This document shows, piece after piece, positions 1,855 through 17,500 of a DNA stretch of 22,861 nucleotides (its first letter is position 1; the number at the start of each line of letters is the position of its first letter). Below the pieces are notes generated by a model. The model was not told the DNA's origin and ran no database searches. It saw only the letters and a list, made by a program, of their open reading frames with translations. Both the position numbers and the translations under genes were made by a program. The stretch is from a virus, in IMG/VR virus record IMGVR_UViG_3300023110_001337, positions 1-22,861 of that record, one strand, 5' to 3'.

Positions 1855-2371
1855 CTGTTTGCTCCGTTGATTCTATATCGTTATTTGGTGTATCTTGAAT
1901 GTCTGGTTGCGTTGTAATTTGATCCATGCCATTATATAATTCTTCGTCTACATTTCGTAGATAACCTTTGTACATATCAAACATTAAACTTTTAGGCATT
2001 GTGATATTAACAATCCAAATAGGATGTCTATCAATTTTACCTTTTTTAGTGCCAGTACGATAATCGTCTGGTGTTTTAATTTTACGTGGTTGTGTTAAGA
2101 AGTCTTTTTTGTATGAAACTTTACAGTTATAGTCTAACAGTCTTTCACCTGCTTTAGGATTAGGCATACTTTTGTGTGGCCACATAAATGAACATCTAAC
2201 AGTGTGTCTGTCTACAATAGGACCTTCAACTAGTTCACCGTCTGCCCAGTTTTCAAACACATACAGATCTAATTCGTCTAAAACACGCTCAAAGTCCTTT
2301 AAGACCCTTAAAGTAGTATTAGACTCGTATATGCCCTTAATATTTTCAATTACTTTTACAACGTCATACAT
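1835..2371 (-). CDS. Hypothetical phage protein, 178 aa
   Basis: An unrecognised 178-residue soluble protein. It has an acidic N-terminal half, a central stretch rich in Trp, Pro and His (about 60-75), a basic patch at about 93-115 and an acidic, low-complexity Asp/Thr/Gln-rich tail (about 150-178). It is the first gene of a leftward unit that continues through the 237-residue gene to the lysis cassette. The ATG is preceded by a GGAGAA Shine-Dalgarno and, 17 bases further upstream, by a GATAAATA late-promoter-like octamer (2389-2396), which fits a late-expressed gene. The product could be a virion or assembly protein, but that is inferred only from timing and neighbours. Confidence 0.7.
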   Translation of the reverse strand: MYDVVKVIENIKGIYESNTTLRVLKDFERVLDELDLYVFENWADGELVEGPIVDRHTVRCSFMWPHKSMPNPKAGERLLDYNCKVSYKKDFLTQPRKIKTPDDYRTGTKKGKIDRHPIWIVNITMPKSLMFDMYKGYLRNVDEELYNGMDQITTQPDIQDTPNNDIESTEQTDDLAQI

Positions 2372-2388
2372 AATTTGTTCTCCACATT

Positions 2389-2396
2389 TATTTATC
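2389..2396 (-). promoter_or_regulatory. T4-type late promoter-like octamer (GATAAATA)
   Basis: On the minus strand the octamer reads GATAAATA, one mismatch from the T4 late consensus TATAAATA. It ends 17 bases before the ATG of the gene at 1835-2371, leaving room for a short leader with a Shine-Dalgarno. T4-like phages use such octamers with gp55 sigma and no -35 element. The assignment is by sequence resemblance and position only. Confidence 0.55.
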
Positions 2397-2485
2397 GTTA
2401 TTAGACTCTTTCAAAAAATTATATTATCGGTTAAAAACCGTGTGTTATTGTTAAATACTTTTGCAGTCGGACAACTAATAACCTT

Positions 2486-2492
2486 AAGGAGG
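2486..2492 (+). promoter_or_regulatory. Strong Shine-Dalgarno that sets the TTG start of phoH
   Basis: AAGGAGG lies six bases before a TTG codon at 2499-2501. The reading frame is open much further upstream (to an ATG at 2172), but that extension runs antisense through the 178-residue gene and gives unlikely protein. The ribosome site and the family length both place the real start at the TTG. Confidence 0.85.
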
Positions 2493-2498
2493 TACATA

Positions 2499-3209
2499 TT
2501 GTCAAGAGCAAAACGTAAAGAGCGTAATAGAAACAATCTCATTGAGATGAACAATTACGCCCACAAAAAACAGGAAGTTTCAATACTTCCACGCAATGTA
2601 AACCAAGAAACCTACCTAGAAACACTTAAAGACAGGAAAAAAGACATAGTATTTGCAGTTGGCCCTGCAGGCACGGGTAAAACCCTGTTAGGCGTTATGA
2701 TGGCTATCAAAGCGTTTAAGGAAAAACAGGTTGATAAAATCGTGATCACAAGACCTGCTGTAAGCGTCGACGAGCAACACGGTTTTCTTCCAGGAACACT
2801 TGAACAGAAAATGGAGCCATGGACAAGACCCATTTTTGATGTTTTTAGGGAGTATTTTTGGAAACATGAACTACAAGGAATGATAGAAGAGGAAATAATT
2901 GAAATATCGCCTTTGGCTTATATGCGAGGACGAACATTTAAAGATGCTTTTATTATTGCTGATGAAATGCAAAATGCTACACCAAGTCAAATGAAGATGT
3001 TGCTAACCCGCATCGGTCAAGGATCTCGTATGGTTGTGACCGGCGATTTACAACAAGCAGATAGAATGACTTCAAATGGCTTGTTAGACTTTTGCCAACG
3101 AGTTTCAAAAAAGGAGTTAAGTAAACTCGCAATTTGTAATTTTGAGAAAGGCGACGTTGAACGTCATGAAGTAGTAAAAGAGGTATTATCCCTTTACGGC
3201 GAAGATTAA
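2499..3209 (+). CDS. phoH: PhoH-like P-loop ATPase
   Basis: A 236-residue PhoH family ATPase. From the TTG start, Walker A is GPAGTGKT at 55-62, the TRPAV segment is at 84-88, Walker B (AFIIADEMQN) is at about 150-159, and a VTGDLQQ segment follows. These are the canonical PhoH features, and the length matches phage PhoH proteins rather than the longer bacterial ones. PhoH is widespread in marine phages and is often called an auxiliary metabolic gene. Its biochemical role (ATPase, possibly RNA-related) is not settled. It is one of only two rightward genes here. Its stop codon overlaps the ferredoxin stop from the other strand inside a 12-base palindrome. The N-terminal 25 residues are strongly basic (SRAKRKERNRNN). 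Confidence 0.93.
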   Translation: MSRAKRKERNRNNLIEMNNYAHKKQEVSILPRNVNQETYLETLKDRKKDIVFAVGPAGTGKTLLGVMMAIKAFKEKQVDKIVITRPAVSVDEQHGFLPGTLEQKMEPWTRPIFDVFREYFWKHELQGMIEEEIIEISPLAYMRGRTFKDAFIIADEMQNATPSQMKMLLTRIGQGSRMVVTGDLQQADRMTSNGLLDFCQRVSKKELSKLAICNFEKGDVERHEVVKEVLSLYGED

Positions 3210-3789: not shown

Positions 3790-4719
3790 TCATTCCTTTC
3801 CTAGCCTTGCTAATTTAATAAGTGTAGCACTCATATTAATTTCTGGATCTGCAACAAATGAATGATCTACTAAACCTTGTTTAATAATTAATACTGCTTG
3901 ATCTTGTTTATCTTCTTCTTTAGAAAATACATCCAAGTTGTCATAGCACCAACGGAAAATATCTTCCATCTCCTCAGGTCTTGCTTGATTACAAACTAGT
4001 TTACGTGCTTCTTGGATCTTGCCTGCTTTAAACAGTTCAACCATTTCAACTTTGTAATCACTTTCACCTGTATCACCTTTCTGTGGTGGCAATAGTTTTC
4101 CTGTTGTACTGTTCATTTGACACATATTGATACACTTACGCATATCAGGATATGTTGCTTTTACAAATGTATCAAGTACATCAAGGTCTGGCTCAACACC
4201 TTCTTCTAATAGAATAGTTGCGATACGTGCTGTGAACTCTGTTTGGTCAACGTTTGTAATATGGAAACCTTGACAACGTGAATGAATCGCTGGAATAATT
4301 CTATTAGGATAATTACAGGTTAAAATAAATCTTGCTGTGTTATGGTATTCTTCCATAACCCCACGCAATGCGGCCTGTGCGTTTGGCGACAGGTAATCCG
4401 CCTCATCTAGTAAAACAACTTTAAAGTCACCAAATGGAATCATTTGTACAAAGTTAACAATTTTGTCTCGCACATCTTCTACAGAGTTTGTACGTGATGC
4501 GTTAATCTCTAATACATCATATTCGTTAACTTCAAGTTCATTTAGCAACACTTTTGCAAGTGTTGTTTTACCTATACCAGCGTGTCCACTAAACAGCAAG
4601 TGTGGAATGCTTTTGTCCTTTACCCAACCATTAACTTGATCTTTTTGTGCTTGATCTCTAAACACATAATCTTTAACAGTCTTAGGACGATATTTTTCTA
4701 CCCAGAGTTCTTTAGCCAT
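3790..4719 (-). CDS. 44: Sliding-clamp loader large subunit, T4 gp44-like
   Basis: A 309-residue AAA+ ATPase of the RFC/gp44 type, which loads the sliding clamp on primed DNA for the replicative polymerase. Visible motifs are the N-terminal RFC box (LWVEKYRPK at 5-13), Walker A GHAGIGKT at 45-52, Walker B LLDEAD at 103-108, sensor 1 (FILTCNYPNRI) at about 131-141 and the SRC arginine-finger motif at 147-149. The length matches gp44. It overlaps the upstream nucleotidyltransferase by eight bases. In T4, gene 62 (the small loader subunit) sits beside gene 44, but I see no recognisable gp62 here. The downstream membrane-protein frame begins at its stop codon. Confidence 0.93.
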   Translation of the reverse strand: MAKELWVEKYRPKTVKDYVFRDQAQKDQVNGWVKDKSIPHLLFSGHAGIGKTTLAKVLLNELEVNEYDVLEINASRTNSVEDVRDKIVNFVQMIPFGDFKVVLLDEADYLSPNAQAALRGVMEEYHNTARFILTCNYPNRIIPAIHSRCQGFHITNVDQTEFTARIATILLEEGVEPDLDVLDTFVKATYPDMRKCINMCQMNSTTGKLLPPQKGDTGESDYKVEMVELFKAGKIQEARKLVCNQARPEEMEDIFRWCYDNLDVFSKEEDKQDQAVLIIKQGLVDHSFVADPEINMSATLIKLARLGKE

Positions 4720-6347: not shown

Positions 6348-6827
6348 TTATTCCTTTTCAGTTAGTGGTTTTGGAGCCTTTCTAATTGTAATAGAAGGTG
6401 CCTCCGATTTTTGATCTCTTGCTTCTTTTTGTTTTTTAATAAAGTTAGTTTTTTGTTGTGCTAGTTGAAGCCATTCGCCAACTTCTGCAGGTTCTTCTTC
6501 AGATACCATTAAAATACAATCTGTATCTGCTTTTCTAATAACCCACTCAGTTCCTTCTGAATCTTCAATTAGTACTCCGCGTCCCCAACGGGCGTGTTCC
6601 ATTAATACCCAATCACCAACATTAATAGCATCTTTATCTTTAAAGTTCGGACCAATGGAATATACTTGTGCCCAACGTGGTCTAATGCCTCGTTCAATTC
6701 CATCGTCTGAAGTAAGTATAATGCCTCCGGCAGTCTTTTCGTCGCCAAAATACATATTCGTCAAAAGTACATCTCCGCCTTTTGCTCTAACATTACCTAT
6801 TACTGTTTTTGTTATTGGTGCTGGCAT
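6348..6827 (-). CDS. GroES/gp31-like co-chaperonin
   Basis: A 159-residue protein with the GroES beta-barrel pattern. After GDVLLTNMYF comes a mobile-loop-like segment EKTAGGIILTS (30-40), in which GGIIL corresponds to the GroEL-contacting motif, then PRWAQVYSIGP, INVGDWVLMEHARWGRGV and a conserved-looking turn. It is longer than bacterial GroES (about 97 aa) because of a C-terminal charged tail of roughly 45 residues. In T4, gp31 replaces GroES so that the host GroEL can fold the major capsid protein, and a similar role is likely here. No GroEL gene is in the window. The gene begins within TAAATG at the end of the upstream 145-residue gene. Co-translation is likely. Confidence 0.85.
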   Translation of the reverse strand: MPAPITKTVIGNVRAKGGDVLLTNMYFGDEKTAGGIILTSDDGIERGIRPRWAQVYSIGPNFKDKDAINVGDWVLMEHARWGRGVLIEDSEGTEWVIRKADTDCILMVSEEEPAEVGEWLQLAQQKTNFIKKQKEARDQKSEAPSITIRKAPKPLTEKE

Positions 6828-7265
6828 TTATTCATCTCCTGTTGCGTCTGCAATACCACTACGTCTACGTCTTGCTCTTTGTACTGCTTCTACAGTTTTT
6901 TCAGCAACACGCTCTTCAACTTTAGCAAGTGATTCATTTTCCATTTCAGGTTGTTTCACTTCTTCAACAACATCAGATACTGCTGTATCTTCAATTTTTA
7001 GTGTTTGTGGCGGTGGAACTTGTGTTTCTACTTTAGGTTGTTGTGCTTTTGCAACTGTTCCTGGATCCGGTGCCGCTTTTGGATTTGCTTCGTAATATTC
7101 AGCCATAATTTGCTCTCTAGTACGAATAACCTTTCCGCCGGGGCCTAATTCATCACCTCTAGCATTAACTTTTGCGTTTCCAACCGCAGGCATTAATTCA
7201 TTTTGGGATTGTAGTTTTCCCATGTCAATCATTCTGCCTTGCATTGTTCTATATGTTTTTCCCAT
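6828..7265 (-). CDS. Proline/glutamate-rich hypothetical protein, 145 aa
   Basis: The N-terminal 50 residues are compact and look conserved (GKTYRTMQGRMIDM, then AVGNAKVNARGDELGPGGK), followed by REQIMAEYY and a disordered Pro/Val/Glu-rich linker (about 60-110). The C-terminus has a helical, Arg-rich stretch (about 115-140). From memory, similar N-termini occur in other marine T4-like phages, but no function is known to me. The low-complexity tail suggests an internal or assembly protein rather than an enzyme. A strong AAGGAGG Shine-Dalgarno precedes the ATG and abuts a 7-base-pair hairpin (7274-7295). The gene ends by overlapping the co-chaperonin start. Confidence 0.7.
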   Translation of the reverse strand: MGKTYRTMQGRMIDMGKLQSQNELMPAVGNAKVNARGDELGPGGKVIRTREQIMAEYYEANPKAAPDPGTVAKAQQPKVETQVPPPQTLKIEDTAVSDVVEEVKQPEMENESLAKVEERVAEKTVEAVQRARRRRSGIADATGDE

Positions 7266-7273
7266 ATGTCCTC

Positions 7274-7295
7274 CTTGATAGTATTACTTATCAAG
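7274..7295 (-). promoter_or_regulatory. Stem-loop abutting a Shine-Dalgarno
   Basis: On the minus strand CTTGATA and TATCAAG form a perfect 7-bp stem with an 8-base loop. The 3' arm merges into AAGGAGG, the ribosome site of the gene at 6828-7265. It lies just after the stop of the DnaE-like gene. With no T-run after it, an RNA-processing, stability or translation-control element is more likely than a terminator. Confidence 0.5.
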
Positions 7296-7301
7296 CATTA
7301 A

Positions 7302-7868
7302 TTACCTCAAAAATTCTTTTGGATCTAAATCATACTTAATGCTGTCCACTTTGTGTACACCTAGTAAGTATAGTACATAACTTGCAACACTAGATCCTCT
7401 ACCTACACCCCATACTATATTCTTTTCACGTAATGTGTCAACAATATATTTTAAACATTTTAAAACGTCTAACATAGCAAATGATGTATATAGTTCTAAT
7501 TCAAATTTAACACGATCAATTTCTGCTTCAGTTTTACACAAGTTTAAAATATGTGCTTCAATATCCATATCTTTATATTCTTGTGGAATAAACCAATTTT
7601 CACGCTGACGTTGATCAAAACCATCGCGATCAACATCTTCTAATTTGGTGTTTAATTTTTGAAAATTATCTCGATTAACATCAACAAAATGATTATACTT
7701 GTTAATATCATCACTTTCTTTGATAATACAACTATCTAAATTTTCTTTATCTTGATATAATAGTTCTAATATGTTAGTGTCGTTAAGAACTGTTTGGCCG
7801 TTTTGATTAACTTCTACCGCCGTCCACGATGGTTGGATTGAATTCTTTTTTTGGTGCATTTGATCCAT
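7302..7868 (-). CDS. DnaE-like fragment protein (GRGSS motif, no catalytic core)
   Basis: A 188-residue protein whose last 37 residues match the start of the polymerase core of bacterial DNA polymerase III alpha subunits: WGVGRGSSVASYVLYLLG, with GRGSS at 156-160, then DLDPKEFLR. In DnaE the catalytic PDxDxD aspartates follow shortly after this point, but here the protein stops. The middle region (about 75-145), with a PQEYKDMDIEAHIL segment and alternating helices, is compatible with the DnaE region that precedes GRGSS. It therefore cannot be an active polymerase. It may bind nucleotides or DNA or act as a partner or decoy. The start at 7868 overlaps the upstream 209-residue gene by 62 bases. 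A second ATG lies three codons downstream. Confidence 0.75.
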   Translation of the reverse strand: MDQMHQKKNSIQPSWTAVEVNQNGQTVLNDTNILELLYQDKENLDSCIIKESDDINKYNHFVDVNRDNFQKLNTKLEDVDRDGFDQRQRENWFIPQEYKDMDIEAHILNLCKTEAEIDRVKFELELYTSFAMLDVLKCLKYIVDTLREKNIVWGVGRGSSVASYVLYLLGVHKVDSIKYDLDPKEFLR

Positions 7869-8436
7869 AACCTAATTCTCTCCATGTTTTTGCACCTTGC
7901 CAATATTCTTTCTCACCAAGTACTTGATCGAACGTTGCTGTATCGTTTCGATCCCACCATGGTTGTGAAATAACATTAGTGTTCCATGCATCTGTTTGTA
8001 ATCGTGTGTTTTCATAACTGTCACTATCTACTGTATATTGTACATTATCACCTAGTTTGCTGTCAACCATTAATTGTCCAATATGGAGATATTTTCCAGC
8101 AATGGCTACGCATTTATTGTAAAGTGCAATACCTAACAGTTGATCGTGTGCATCACCCGGTAATAAGATTTTGTTTACGGGCATCTTAAAGAAAACACTT
8201 TCTAAATTAGATTTTGGTTTTAAAATAACACTGTTTTCACAAAGTTTTTCAAATAGATATTTTACTCTGTCAAAACTATTATTTTGTAATTTTATGTCTG
8301 TGACTTTTGGAAGGAAAGTTAATTTAATATGATAGTTGTTTGGGTATACAACGTCATCTACAATTACTATTGCGTCGAATTCAGTTTCCCATGAAAAGAA
8401 ATTAAAAATTTGGTCTGTGCTATCGCTTGTCAACAT
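7807..8436 (-). CDS. Hypothetical protein paired with the DnaE-like fragment, 209 aa
   Basis: A 209-residue soluble protein of unknown family. The first 70 residues look like a mixed alpha/beta fold (FDAIVIVDDVVYPNNYHIKLTFL region), followed by a motif-like stretch GDAHDQLLGIALYNKCVAIAG (about 114-134) and a Trp-rich C-terminal segment. It overlaps the next gene (7302-7868) by 62 bases and is overlapped at its own start by the coiled-coil gene (8420-8686), so the three form one translational unit. The unusually long overlap suggests co-evolution of the pair, and the two products may interact or be remnants of one larger gene. No catalytic motif is recognised. Confidence 0.65.
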   Translation of the reverse strand: MLTSDSTDQIFNFFSWETEFDAIVIVDDVVYPNNYHIKLTFLPKVTDIKLQNNSFDRVKYLFEKLCENSVILKPKSNLESVFFKMPVNKILLPGDAHDQLLGIALYNKCVAIAGKYLHIGQLMVDSKLGDNVQYTVDSDSYENTRLQTDAWNTNVISQPWWDRNDTATFDQVLGEKEYWQGAKTWRELGYGSNAPKKEFNPTIVDGGRS

Positions 8437-8686
8437 TTACTAACTCGTTTAAATCAGTTTCTACTTCTTGCTTTGCTTTGTCAACAGTATTTTGATACTG
8501 TCTTCTAAGCCTCCTGGATTGTTCTTCCTTGTAAGTACTTAGTAGCATCATCATCTGATGAAGCACAGACTGATTTCCTTGTCGAGTAGCCAGTGTATAT
8601 TTTTTTGAAAGTTCGCGAATACGTTCTTCAAGATCTTCGTCTTTAAGAACTGAAACATCTTCTTGAAAAGGATGTAGTCCAAACAT
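8420..8686 (-). CDS. Coiled-coil hypothetical protein, 88 aa
   Basis: The protein begins MFGLHPFQEDVS and then consists almost entirely of charged helix with heptad character (about 15-85, including RIRELSKKY and EEQSRRLRRQYQNTVDKAKQ). It has no membrane segment. It lies directly downstream of the smallest fibre gene (three bases apart) and overlaps the 209-residue gene by 17 bases. From memory, similar short proteins occur in other marine T4-like phages next to structural genes. An assembly chaperone or minor tail component is conceivable, but no function is demonstrated. Confidence 0.7.
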   Translation of the reverse strand: MFGLHPFQEDVSVLKDEDLEERIRELSKKYTLATRQGNQSVLHQMMMLLSTYKEEQSRRLRRQYQNTVDKAKQEVETDLNELVNVDKR

Positions 8687-11605: not shown

Positions 11606-14506
11606 TTACGATTCAATGTATTCACTTACTAGCCACCAACTTCCTGAGTGCCAAATAAGTGTAAGGGCGCCATGCTCATTATTGGTTCCATTACTTAATT
11701 CAATTGTACTTGTGGCACCATTAATTTTTAATGAAACTTCAAGATATCTATCAAAGAATGAAACGCTGTCTAATGAATAACGTCCTCTTGATTTCATTTT
11801 TAAAATTTTCATCTGTCCTTCTTGAGCACCGTCTGGTAAAGTAGCAAACGCCAATCCAGCACTTGCACTAGTCCAATCATTAGTAGTCACAAATGTCACT
11901 GTTGTGTTCATATTAATTGTTGATGGTGCTTGTGTTGAACCAATGATAAGTTCATTTGTTCCAGTTAGACTTAGTCCACCGTTTATTCTAATATCACCTT
12001 CTAATTCAACATAGCCTGTACCATTTGACGCAATTCTTAAATTACTATTAGATGTTTGTGTTTCAATATTATTTGCATCAATACGTAAGTCACCTAAATC
12101 AATTTGTCCATTAACATCAAGTTTGTTATTAATAGTTGTTAATCCACTTACTGTTAATGTTCCTGCAATGTTTGTATTGTCATTAATTTGAACATCACCA
12201 GATGCATTTGAAATTGCTCCACTTGCTGTAATATTATTAAATGCACTTGTGCCTGGACTTGTAATATCACCTGTGAATGAATTAGCAGTAATATTTCCTG
12301 TTGCACTCGCACTAGCAATATTAACAATATTAAATGTACTTGTTCCGCTAGTAGCATTTACATTACCATTATGTAATCCTGTTGTACTACCAGTTAAGTT
12401 TCCTGTGACATTACCTGTGACATTACCTGAAATATCAGCAGTAATACTACCACCACTTACTGATAAAGCACCTGTAAGTGTAATATTATTAAATGTACTT
12501 GTTCCAGTTGATGTGACATTGCCTGTTAAATCGCCTGTGACGTCACCAGTTAAGTTTCCTGTGACATTACCTGTGACATTACCTACAACAGCACCAACGT
12601 GCTGTCCTCTAAAGTTATTTGCATAAATGTCTCTTACTGGAGTTCCGCTTGTACCAATGTCAGTGTTTGCAGTTGCAATAATATCTTGTACTGTGATATT
12701 ACCACTAAATGTTCCGCCTGACTTAGGCATAAAGCCTTTACCTTCAATATATGTTGCATTAGCAATGTTATCAATTGAAGTAAATTCTAAACCATCACCT
12801 GTTGCATTTACTTGTACAATTTTATCAGCATCGCCTGCCAACGCCGCATATGATGTTGGAGTATCTGTTAATCCAACAAAGTCAACTGAACCAGTACCAC
12901 TTGCTTCGCCTGTTGCATAACCATCTGACACATATGCTGTAAATCCTGATGTATCAACAGTTGTGCTTAGTGTGTCGTCACTGTAAAGAGCAAAAGTAGT
13001 TGATGTTAATACATCTGCATAATACTCATTACCGTTAACTTCAGTCATTCCAACAACATCAGTTAATGTGACTGGTTGTCCATCACTTAAACCATGTGCT
13101 TCTGTAGTTGTGACAACACCCGGATCGGCTTGTGTAATACCACTAATAGCCTTAGGTGTACCACCGCCACCACCACCGCCTACGCCCCATTCTAGCACTG
13201 TACCACTAGTAGGAACCTTTAATACTTGTCCTGCTTGTCCAATGCTTCTTGGGAATTGATATGCACCGTATAAATCTACATAACCAGCACCGTCTGCATT
13301 AAGTTGTAAATTGTTGTTTGAAGTACCAACTGTTTCGATAGTACCTTCACTAATTTTAATTTGTCCTTCACCAGAACCTAAAATAATTTCGTTATTGCTT
13401 TTAAATTGTGCTACTGGTTTAAAGTCTTCTCCAACACCTAGTTGTGGATCTGCAGGTTGAATAATAAGTGAGTTTACAGTTGCAGATTCTCTATAATAAC
13501 CAAGTTGTCCTAATGAATCACCAACACCTGTTGATGTGCCAATTAAGAAATCAATACCAGCACCCATGCCATTGTTAACATTTGCTTGTGTTGTGTGGTT
13601 TGAAACAGTTAAGAAAGATTCAATTTGATCATTAGCGGTTCCTAACAATCTAAATGCCGCTGTTGGAGAACCTTCATCTAATTGTACGTAGAAGTCACCG
13701 TCTGCAATTTCGTTTGCTAAAACGTTGTTTATAGGATTACCTCTGCGTAATTTAAATCTATGACCACCTTCAATTGTGTGTCCGTTTGTAGCAAGATTAC
13801 CTGCTAGACCACCATTAATGTTTCCTATTAGTGTACCTGTGACATTACCTGTCACTGGACCTACAATTCCAGCCGGTGCAGTCACTTGGCCTGTTAGTGT
13901 AGTAAGACCATTTACTATAAGACTGTTTTGGACTGTTAGATCAAATATAGTTGCATCTGTAGATTCTATATTTGTTAAAGAAGTAATTTCACCTGGGCCA
14001 ATAATGTTATTTGATTGCATAGCAAGATTGCCACCTAGTTCTGGTGTGCTATCTTGATCAAGTGTAAATGAACCTGTAATTACTAAGTTTCTACCAGTTT
14101 GAGAAAGTGTAATATTTGTACCGCCTACAATACCAATACTTTCGTTTCCTGAACTAGTTGTAATAGAATTGTTAACAGCATTAATGTCATTACTCCACTG
14201 TATAGTTCTAACTGCTGGAGTAGCAACAGCACTGTTGTCTAGTATAATACTTTCACCGTCGCTGGTAATTGTTAATCTTGCAGGATCAGCACTTTTAATT
14301 CTTTTAAATCGTAAATCATAACCCGACTTGCCTGCAAAAATTGCTTGACCATCGGCTTGTTCAGTACCTAAGTTTACACCCGTATTACTTTCACCACCTC
14401 TAGCATCAACTTCCGCAAACTTGGCGTTGACCTTTTGGAAGGCTGTTCTTAGATCATCACCTGTTCCGTCGTTTACGTTATTACCAATTTTAACTACGTC
14501 TGCCAT
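11606..14506 (-). CDS. Long tail fibre protein, 966 aa
   Basis: The N-terminus has the shared fibre module (IGNNVNDGTGDDLR, then FQKVNAKF, residues 7-30). The middle is a fibrous region of short repeats, including VTGNVTG-type glycine repeats near residues 215-235 and 640-715. A run of seven glycines precedes a module at 453-529 (AISGITQADPG to FTAYVSDG), which resembles the FCCH-type beta module also found twice in the 2198-residue fibre. The C-terminal 120 residues, with a Trp pair near the end, look globular and may be the receptor-binding tip. It lies between the giant fibre and the Ig adhesin, has a late-promoter-like octamer upstream, and is surely a virion component. Confidence 0.88.
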   Translation of the reverse strand: MADVVKIGNNVNDGTGDDLRTAFQKVNAKFAEVDARGGESNTGVNLGTEQADGQAIFAGKSGYDLRFKRIKSADPARLTITSDGESIILDNSAVATPAVRTIQWSNDINAVNNSITTSSGNESIGIVGGTNITLSQTGRNLVITGSFTLDQDSTPELGGNLAMQSNNIIGPGEITSLTNIESTDATIFDLTVQNSLIVNGLTTLTGQVTAPAGIVGPVTGNVTGTLIGNINGGLAGNLATNGHTIEGGHRFKLRRGNPINNVLANEIADGDFYVQLDEGSPTAAFRLLGTANDQIESFLTVSNHTTQANVNNGMGAGIDFLIGTSTGVGDSLGQLGYYRESATVNSLIIQPADPQLGVGEDFKPVAQFKSNNEIILGSGEGQIKISEGTIETVGTSNNNLQLNADGAGYVDLYGAYQFPRSIGQAGQVLKVPTSGTVLEWGVGGGGGGGTPKAISGITQADPGVVTTTEAHGLSDGQPVTLTDVVGMTEVNGNEYYADVLTSTTFALYSDDTLSTTVDTSGFTAYVSDGYATGEASGTGSVDFVGLTDTPTSYAALAGDADKIVQVNATGDGLEFTSIDNIANATYIEGKGFMPKSGGTFSGNITVQDIIATANTDIGTSGTPVRDIYANNFRGQHVGAVVGNVTGNVTGNLTGDVTGDLTGNVTSTGTSTFNNITLTGALSVSGGSITADISGNVTGNVTGNLTGSTTGLHNGNVNATSGTSTFNIVNIASASATGNITANSFTGDITSPGTSAFNNITASGAISNASGDVQINDNTNIAGTLTVSGLTTINNKLDVNGQIDLGDLRIDANNIETQTSNSNLRIASNGTGYVELEGDIRINGGLSLTGTNELIIGSTQAPSTINMNTTVTFVTTNDWTSASAGLAFATLPDGAQEGQMKILKMKSRGRYSLDSVSFFDRYLEVSLKINGATSTIELSNGTNNEHGALTLIWHSGSWWLVSEYIES
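12376..12600 (-). repeat. VTGN-type glycine repeats in the 966-aa fibre
   Basis: Two blocks encode tandem GNVTGNVTGNLTG-type units, at about 12510-12600 and 12376-12440. At DNA level a unit close to GGTAATGTCACA is reused. Seven GTSAC motifs and no GTWAC occur in this short stretch. Such units form extended beta-rich fibre shafts. Confidence 0.75.
12920..13150 (-). repeat. FCCH-like module, copy in the 966-aa fibre
   Basis: Residues 453-529. The module begins GITQADPGVVTTTEAHGL, continues through VVGMTEVNG and ends DTSGFTAY. It is closely similar to residues 1852-1928 of the 2198-residue fibre (GVVGMTEING, DTFGFTAY). This indicates duplication or exchange of a beta-barrel-like module between the fibre genes. 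Confidence 0.75.
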
Positions 14507-14534: not shown

Positions 14535-17500
14535 GCCTTCCAACTACTACTTCGATGATACCAACTTCATCGCTATCATAGTTTTCAAGTGCTTTACCAA
14601 TTACTGATCCTAGTTTTGGATCATCACTTGCTTTACCAACACCTTCAATTGAACTAGCAACAATCATGTCGCCTTTCTCAATTTTACCAACAACTTTACA
14701 TGGTACTCTACCTTGTAATGCTAGTTGAACGACATTGTCACCTTCAAGTTTGTTATTCATAGTGTAGCCTGGTGCTGTTGAAACAACACCTGCAACCTTA
14801 GTAGTACCTTCAACAGTTGATGCAGTGACTTCGTTATCTCCACCAAACATTAAAACTGTTCCTGGTTCATAGTTATTATCTGCTAGATATTTTTCTGCCA
14901 AGTCAGCAAATTCTGCTTCAGCGGCAGTACCTTCAAATCTTACTGCATATACGTTTGCATATCTATTACTAACTTCACCAATATCATAAGTATTATCTGC
15001 ACCTGTGTTAACACCTCCTGCAACACTAGCACTTGGTGTAATGGCTCTAGTACCTAGTACACCAGTCATATTAGTGTCGTCAGTTAAACCATTTCTACGT
15101 AGGTATGTTCCATCATATGGCGAACCAGCCGCAACTGCCGCATTTAGTGTAATACTAATATCTTGACTACCATCAAATGTAGCACTACCTGTTGCCGCAC
15201 CTGTAAATGATATTGTTCTTGCAGTTGTAAGTGTATCTGAACTACCAATAAATCTACTATCAGTATAGCCATTTGTTTTATCTAATGTAAGGATAACTGT
15301 TCCGTCTGTACCTTTAATAAGATCAAATACAGATGTAATTGTTCCGCCGGAAGTATATGCTGTAAATCCAAATGTGTCTGTACCGTTTGTTAACGCTTCG
15401 TCTTCGTAAATTTCAAAAGAGTTAGTTGAAACACCGCCAACGTATTTTACTAATCCGTTGATTTCGGTCATTCCTACTACACCGCTAAACTTAACTTTAT
15501 CACCACTCTTAAATCCGTGATTGGATGCAGTAATTACAGCAGGATCTCCTTGTGTAATATTAGTGATTGAAACTGATTTACCACGTGCTTCTTGAATTGT
15601 ATCTGTGTTAACCTGTTTAGCATATAAGTTTCTATAACGTGCAGTTGTTAAACCTAGGTCACTTGATGCATCACTAGTTGGTCTTACTAGTAATGTTTGT
15701 AGTGTACCAGTCATTGTACCACCAGTTTTAACTAGGGCACCGTTAGCATCAAGTACGTTTTCGTCAATGTATGCTTCAACTTGATTATCAAAATCAATAA
15801 TTGTTCTAACCTGTGCAGGTGTAAGAGCAACAACTGCCGCTTCTTGCGAATCGTCATTACCTAGTATACTATTACCTGTCACAAATTCAATTTTGTTTAA
15901 TCCAACGCCGTCATCTGGATTAGCAAGTGATGGAGTTTTTAATTCAATAAATCCGTTTGTTGCTGTAAACTCAGTATTGTGGAAACTTGCTAGTCCTAAG
16001 TCTGCTTGTGTAATACCAGTTGCATTTGCTCTAGTACTTGCGGCTTCCATATCTAGTTTGCTTTGTGCAATCGCCGCCGCGGCACTTACGTCTGCATTTT
16101 TAACAGCACCATTTGCAAGTTGAATATTGAGTGAGTTATTTGTTCTTGTAAATCTAACATCAGAGCCTGTTCCTGTTGGCTCACCAAATGTTGGACTACC
16201 TCCTGTAGAATCAACAGTTGTATCTAGTGCAACGTTTACAGCACCTTCTGTTTGATCACCATCACCGTTAGTTCCGTTCTGACCATTAAACATTAACAAG
16301 TCTGTATTAGCAGGAGCACCTGTAATTACAACACTGTCTAAACCACCAATTCTATTTTGACCGTCAACATACTTTTTAGTTGCCGCGTCTGAACCATCTA
16401 CTGGATCACGCATTGATTTAATTCTGTTGCCGTTCATGTCAATAGCACCACTGTCAAGTGTACTATCGTTTAACATTTCAAATGCTACTACATCTGTTCT
16501 AATTGAATCTGTAGTTGCACCACGGAATACATTGTCTGCATAGTTTTTGTTAACACCGTCTGCATCTTGTGCGCCTGTCATTGAAATATTTGTAATTTTG
16601 TGCGAACTCATGTTAAGTTCACCAGCCATTTTATTCCAAGAAAGATTTGATGCGTTATAACCTGCTCTACTTAATAAACCAAATGAGCCACCGCCTTGTG
16701 AACCTGTTGTTGTCCATTCAGGGAATGTAGTTCCATCTTCGTGTTGTCCAATTACAGCACTGTTCAAGTAAGTCACAATTGATGCTTCTGTTGGAACAGC
16801 ATCGTCTGATTTTCCTAACAGTTTATCGTCTGTTGAAAACTCATCAATAACAGTACCTTTTGTAAATCCTAATCCATCAACGTTTGTCAAAGAAATATTT
16901 GCATTAAGTTCTACAGATCCGTCACCTTGGTTAACACGGAAGAACTTACCTACTCTAAAGTTTCCGTCTTGGTCTGTACTTGCATAGAATACTCTACCTG
17001 CACCAATCTCAACTGCTTCTGACGCCTGATCAGATGCAAAGTCTGGACGTCCACTTGGTGCACCAAACACATTGTTTGGGTAGTTAGAGTCTGCATAATT
17101 ACCCCAACCAATGTTTAGGAAATCGTGTCCTGTTGCTCTTAGTGTTGAAATTTTAGTTGTGACCTTAACAACATCACCATTAAATCTGTCTGCTGGGAAT
17201 GTTAAGTCTAAACTCATTTGCTGGTAATCAATATTTGAATCACCAGGTTCGTTTGTTGTTAATCTTTCAACACCTAAAATTCTAAATACTTCTTGATCTC
17301 CAGTTGCAAATTGCAATGCTGAACTTGGAAGTACTCTTGGTGTATCTGTTAAGTTTCTAACAAAAACTTTTTTACCAATTGTAAGAATTACTTCTGCACC
17401 ATCTGCAAGTGATGTTCCTGTACCAATTGCTAGTTGTTGTCCTAATTTTAATAACGCTCTACCACCACCTTTGGCCGTACAACCTGTACCATCATAATTT

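Follow-up and report, generated by a model that had tools for sequence, protein, structure and literature searches.

The window analysed here, a stretch of 22,861 nt (about 22.9 kb) of viral DNA, contains an open reading frame whose product resembles DNA polymerase III alpha (Pol III alpha, DnaE) and stops just where the catalytic PDxDxD motif should follow. The locus thus raises the question of whether this protein is a broken polymerase, a fragment with a role of its own, or one part of an enzyme whose remainder is encoded elsewhere. The features that bear on this question are collected in Table 1, where N-half denotes the protein in question and C-half a second gene found in its relatives.

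The DnaE-like protein and its end point

ORF 7302-7868 on the minus strand is an open frame of 188 aa with the C-terminal letters ...VWGVGRGSSVASYVLYLLGVHKVDSIKYDLDPKEFLR, the terminal sequence of the protein being GVGRGSSVASYVLYLLGVHKVDSIKYDLDPKEFLR, and its chain stops at EFLR, about eight residues ahead of the PDxDxD position. The protein scored 40.1 bits (E 4.2e-10) against Pfam DNA_pol3_alpha (PF07733), well above the curated cut-off of 23.9 bits, with profile positions 20-94 of 260 corresponding to residues 113-187, and it matched phrog_11127, a family of 171 positions already annotated as 'DNA polymerase', in full, up to and including its final position (171/171, E 8.7e-48). Because of the extent of these two matches, the resemblance is neither due to chance nor limited to a few residues, as the sequence-only reading had considered possible, and its identification of a genuine piece of Pol III alpha is borne out. 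Pfam detected positions 20-94 of PF07733 only in the 188-aa protein, and no PHP, fingers or clamp-binding region. Using a profile of the N-half family built from 55 relatives for a PDB profile search, we obtained an alignment to residues 320-392 of E. coli DnaE (2hnh). Since D401 and D403, the catalytic aspartates in the established numbering, are located about eight residues past this region, the N-half protein stops just before them, in agreement with the same reading; the chain itself lacks these aspartates and hence does not qualify as a full-length DnaE. The GVGRGSSVAS motif occupies residues 154-163, among which G154, G156-S159, V161 and S163 are invariant in the 55 relatives. These alignments show that, at the level of sequence, the 188-aa protein and the opening part of the DnaE palm are homologous as far as the FL helix, with an invariant GRGS loop.

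Table 1. Features of the window around the N-half gene, with the evidence for each
Positions	Strand	Feature	Basis
3790..4719	-	Clamp loader large subunit (T4 gp44 type), downstream in 101/118 loci	phrog_168, E 7e-81
6348..6827	-	GroES-like co-chaperonin, next gene in 117/118 loci	phrog_931 / phrog_3188
6828..7265	-	phrog_14844 protein, directly downstream of the N-half in 118/118 loci; possible partner	phrog match and loci
7302..7868	-	Putative N-half of a minimal DNA polymerase III alpha that is split; N-terminal part, nucleotide-binding, 188 aa	phrog_11127 family
7302..7304	-	Stop codon, coinciding with the split point; in relatives, the missing DxDxD is in another gene	Conserved end and joined profile
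7305..7532	-	Beginning of the C-family palm (residues 113-188), with homology to ~320-393 of E. coli DnaE	PF07733 and 2hnh profile alignment
7380..7409	-	GVGRGSSVAS motif, triphosphate-gripping loop of Pol III alpha	Conservation in 55 relatives
7807..8436	-	Upstream ORF sharing 62 nt with the start of the N-half; 32/118 loci; no family match	ORF list and loci
8420..8686	-	Small protein (phrog_15348), upstream in 101/118 loci	phrog match and loci

Among GenBank phages, 68 records matched at E <= 1e-5, nearly all of them jumbo phages (e.g., PA5oct, RaK2, GAP32, CBB, Atu_ph07, SCTP-2 and XacN1), the remaining few being ordinary or split dnaE genes. IMG/VR yielded at least 545 N-half stretches, with more from further searches, while only six N-half loci occur in the genome collection, all in metagenome-assembled bins and at least some apparently on phage contigs. 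A pattern scan with the SCTP-2 protein returned no matches. The family has a common end: in 118/118 loci (84 relatives and more divergent ones), which include independent assemblies as well as cultured phages, the stop codon lies at most eight residues (0-8) past EF(L/F/M/I). As judged from a dN/dS of about 0.2 in the comparison with the closest relative (77% identity), the N-half gene is under purifying selection, and the sequence downstream of it holds no further Pol III alpha sequence. The name of the protein and its missing motif are all that would speak for a full-length dnaE recently truncated, or frameshifted in the assembly as the sequence-only reading had allowed for; given the end point shared by the 118 loci and the low dN/dS, we regard this explanation as practically ruled out.

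The C-half gene and the probable division of one enzyme

Searches with PF07733 and PF17657 did not detect a second Pol III piece in the complete phages, and in four complete relatives no finger domain exceeded the cut-off. The lead to the C-half came from TIGR00594 with the limit loosened, alongside weak finger-domain matches; the weak matches fell on ORFs of 188-216 aa in Atu_ph07, Phosso, GAP32, XacN1 and RAS14, which begin at or near DIDIDF (e.g., MKNIPDIDIDF) and carry KxDFL, IRPxK and KKSHAxxYA in the DnaE order. The C-half is a distant gene of about 190-215 aa, usually starting with M-P-DIDIDF, with the motifs DxDID, KxDxL, RPxK and KSHA, so that it holds all three catalytic acidic positions, the KxD lysine and the RP and KSHA motifs. 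All 22 aligned C-halves share DxDID, KxDxL, RPxK and H without exception, and exactly two residues, mostly MP, precede DIDID in 39 of 57 parsed ones. The family corresponds to phrog_11778, likewise labelled 'DNA polymerase'.

A C-half profile found one copy each in Paride (15232-15789), SCTP-2 (158358-158921) and Vibrio 2.275 (11625-12209), and every one of the eight complete named jumbo phages that carry the first half also has the second; T4, which has no N-half, had no match either. The profile also matched 14 further IMG/VR virus contigs, mostly >180 kb, and two places in a bacterial bin, and at least 592 further C-half stretches were found in IMG/VR. It had no match in the window or in the 36- and 30-kb contigs of its two closest relatives, all of which are fragments, nor in two long N-half contigs of 543 kb (behind L063) and 245 kb (behind L075), whose C-half is lost, diverged or outside the assembled part. 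An 11.7-kb contig (L256) with a C-half carries the same metagenome number (3300044724) as the window's closest relative, which is suggestive only. In 42 of 57 loci, a DnaG-type primase (phrog_47) lies within about 2 kb of the C-half. In L204-L283 (e.g., L253:5325-6314), the C-half has a zinc-finger-like protein (phrog_11058) on one side and a protein of the virion structure on the other.

A PDB search with the C-half profile gave nine matches, all to Pol III alpha (E 0.002), with the collinear pieces SMPDIDIDF, KxDFL, ALxRP and FxKSHAxxY. When the N-halves and C-halves of ten phages were joined in one profile, the match to mycobacterial Pol III alpha (5lew) improved to E 7.5e-14, compared with 0.005 for the N-half and 0.002 for the C-half separately, and a single aligned stretch crosses the junction, running from the N-half through FL into SMPDIDIDF. 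In the complete relatives examined, the C-half begins exactly where the N-half protein stops. The gain in E-value and the stretch across the junction indicate that two genes divide one enzyme at one point, and the 188-aa protein is one piece of a split enzyme rather than a broken protein. Very probably, judging from these profile comparisons, the product of ORF 7302-7868 is the N-terminal half, binding dNTPs, of a small C-family polymerase specified by two genes in T4-related jumbo phages. As the window holds the N-half alone, we infer the partner in the window's own phage from these relatives.

This arrangement fits a published one. Iyer et al. (2021, PMC7824862), in a survey of jumbo phages, proposed that those of group 2.2 combine their family B polymerase with a phage-specific minimal Pol III alpha whose two parts come from genes lying far apart: an N-terminal protein that binds NTPs and a C-terminal one that binds Mg2+ and template. 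Their split Pol III (phrog_11127 plus phrog_11778) differs in nothing essential from ours, and the window protein appears, from its sequence, to be a new N-half of it; the relevant passages of that paper do not contain the exact junction, the block with phrog_14844 and the GroES-like gene, or the linkage of the C-half to primase. Two reports concern members of the same family as the window N-half: the one on Pectobacterium phage CBB (PMC5259590) already described CBB_328 as a Pol III alpha truncated to 172 aa, and the other predicted a Pol III alpha in Agrobacterium phage Atu_ph07 (PMC6102473); the relevant passages of these two reports do not mention the missing half.

As in bacterial DnaE, pre-palm helices, GRGS loop and FL helix are found in the N-half, with DxDxD, KxD, RP and KSHA following in the second gene. 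However, bacterial DnaE is a protein of about 1160 aa, whereas the phage enzyme would consist of two chains of about 380 aa in all, lacking the PHP, HhH, clamp-binding, OB and C-terminal domains and most of the thumb. Cellulophaga phage phiST likewise has its Pol III alpha divided between two ORFs, but these are adjacent genes of 525 and 673 aa, amounting to full size, and since the first one keeps about 58 residues past the FL position, the phiST break is located further downstream. The split dnaE of Pseudomonas phage PA5 was discarded as a parallel: in the record, the end of the first ORF resembles the product of a frameshift, and it includes LPDIDIDF anyway. The two 'DNA polymerase III alpha' ORFs of PA5 (KY000082, 39547-42653) look like one frameshift-broken gene, unlike those of phiST.

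Gene neighbourhood

In the 118 loci, the gene order is phrog_15348 (101 loci), a homologue of ORF 7807-8436 (32), the N-half, phrog_14844 (118), the GroES-like gene (117) and gp44 (101, some contigs ending early). The block at 6348-7868, comprising the N-half, phrog_14844 and the GroES-like gene, is almost invariant across these loci. ORF 7807-8436 was rejected as an obligate partner, as it is present in only 32 of the 118 loci. In named phages, phrog_14844 occurs in N-half carriers only, directly downstream of the N-half, and its product may be a third subunit or an assembly factor. The place of the N-half in a conserved phage core block, close to the clamp loader, is more in keeping with a core part of replication than with a host-specific inhibitor. 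The T4-related context proposed by the sequence-only reading holds, and a family B polymerase is found in 8/8 relatives as well as in T4; the window fragment itself shows the gp44-type clamp loader only.

The idea that the N-half replaces gp62 was dropped on account of XacN1, in which a divergent gp62-like ORF closely follows gp44. In XacN1 (AP018399), positions 133829-134281 give a weak gp62 (PF16790) match there, which suggests that the small subunit of the clamp loader, stated to be lacking in phage CBB, is present in N-half phages but highly diverged. The N-half is probably not a major virion protein, although the evidence is weak, because mass spectrometry of PA5oct marks the nearby EST35_0285 and EST35_0292 as structural and leaves the N-half unmarked. 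A scan for T4 late promoters (TATAAATA) gave fewer matches than expected by chance. At 2172-3209 of the window, a PhoH-like ATPase gene lies on the strand opposite to the surrounding block, and this strand switch recurs in several relatives.

Possible function and alternative explanations

The GRGS loop of Pol III alpha grips the triphosphate, and the two DxD aspartates, with a third from KxD, hold two metal ions; these roles are established for C-family and Pol beta-like nucleotidyltransferases. If the window's phage carries a C-half gene outside the 22.9-kb fragment, the two chains would pair into one nucleotidyltransferase active site, with the GRGS loop of the N-half holding the triphosphate and DxD plus the third aspartate of the C-half holding the two metal ions. 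As GRGS is in the window's protein and the acidic residues are in the partner, the site would be functional only in the two-chain complex. The continuous homology across the junction gives indirect support only to the view that the chains would form one active polymerase; in the literature searched, we found no biochemical test of such a split enzyme. In the C-half, DxD and KxD are spaced 62 residues apart, compared with about 150 in E. coli DnaE, which means that the thumb is largely absent. Judging from this architecture, a thumb-less two-chain enzyme would probably be distributive, and processive synthesis without a thumb is doubtful. A distributive enzyme fits an auxiliary task beside the family B replicase of the eight relatives, where the enzyme of about 380 aa may synthesise DNA, perhaps in primer extension or repair. 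More specifically, it might be specialised in extending primers before the family B replicase takes over, and be assembled with phrog_14844 as a third subunit and perhaps with the GroES-like protein; the N-half lies near the clamp loader and the C-half near primase, and we give this proposal a small chance of being correct.

Several other readings were weighed against an active split polymerase. The two halves might instead assemble into a non-catalytic or regulatory complex, a nucleotide-bound scaffold at the phage fork, as these phages already have a family B polymerase and the pair lacks PHP, thumb and clamp-binding regions (DxD-KxD spacing again 62 versus about 150). However, none of the 22 aligned C-halves departs from the acidic triad or the KxD lysine, and GRGS is likewise invariant in the N-half, which is the pattern expected for selection on catalysis, and we consider such a complex unlikely while granting it some weight. 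The sequence-only reading favoured a stand-alone, non-catalytic fragment of Pol III alpha with a new role, such as the sensing of nucleotides or primers, or interference with the host replisome. Its premises stand, namely a true Pol III alpha piece ending before the aspartates, and the chain by itself has no catalytic residues, nor does the window hold a second piece. The stand-alone role is not supported: in all complete relatives examined (8/8 complete named relatives), the part with the aspartates is encoded by a gene of its own that starts exactly at the split point, and the fixed core gene block is conserved across phages of very different hosts. We thus find this reading very improbable.

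That phrog_14844 (6828-7265) completes the fold, the pair acting without the distant C-half, is very improbable, even though this gene is immediately downstream in all 118 loci and its named-phage matches adjoin the N-half gene in N-half carriers. In the phrog_14844 protein, the acidic motif varies, the Asp is not strictly conserved and there is no second acidic residue that is conserved. An AlphaFold model of the fusion made by natural in-frame readthrough from the DnaE-like gene into phrog_14844 does fold, but the DnaE match is not extended (TMq x length about 70-80 residues with or without phrog_14844), and the coevolution signal was not above background. We therefore rejected phrog_14844 as the missing catalytic part on the variable Asp, the fusion model and the lack of covariation. 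The two genes are in frame in 36 of the 118 loci, near the one third expected by chance.

If the N-half and the distant C-half work together, two replicative polymerases, one bacterial-type and one archaeal/eukaryotic-type, would operate alongside each other in these phages, and the former would be a very small Pol III that is cut inside its own catalytic fold. Such a 380-aa enzyme, if real, would offer a test bed for the minimal needs of a C-family polymerase and for the origin of Pol III.
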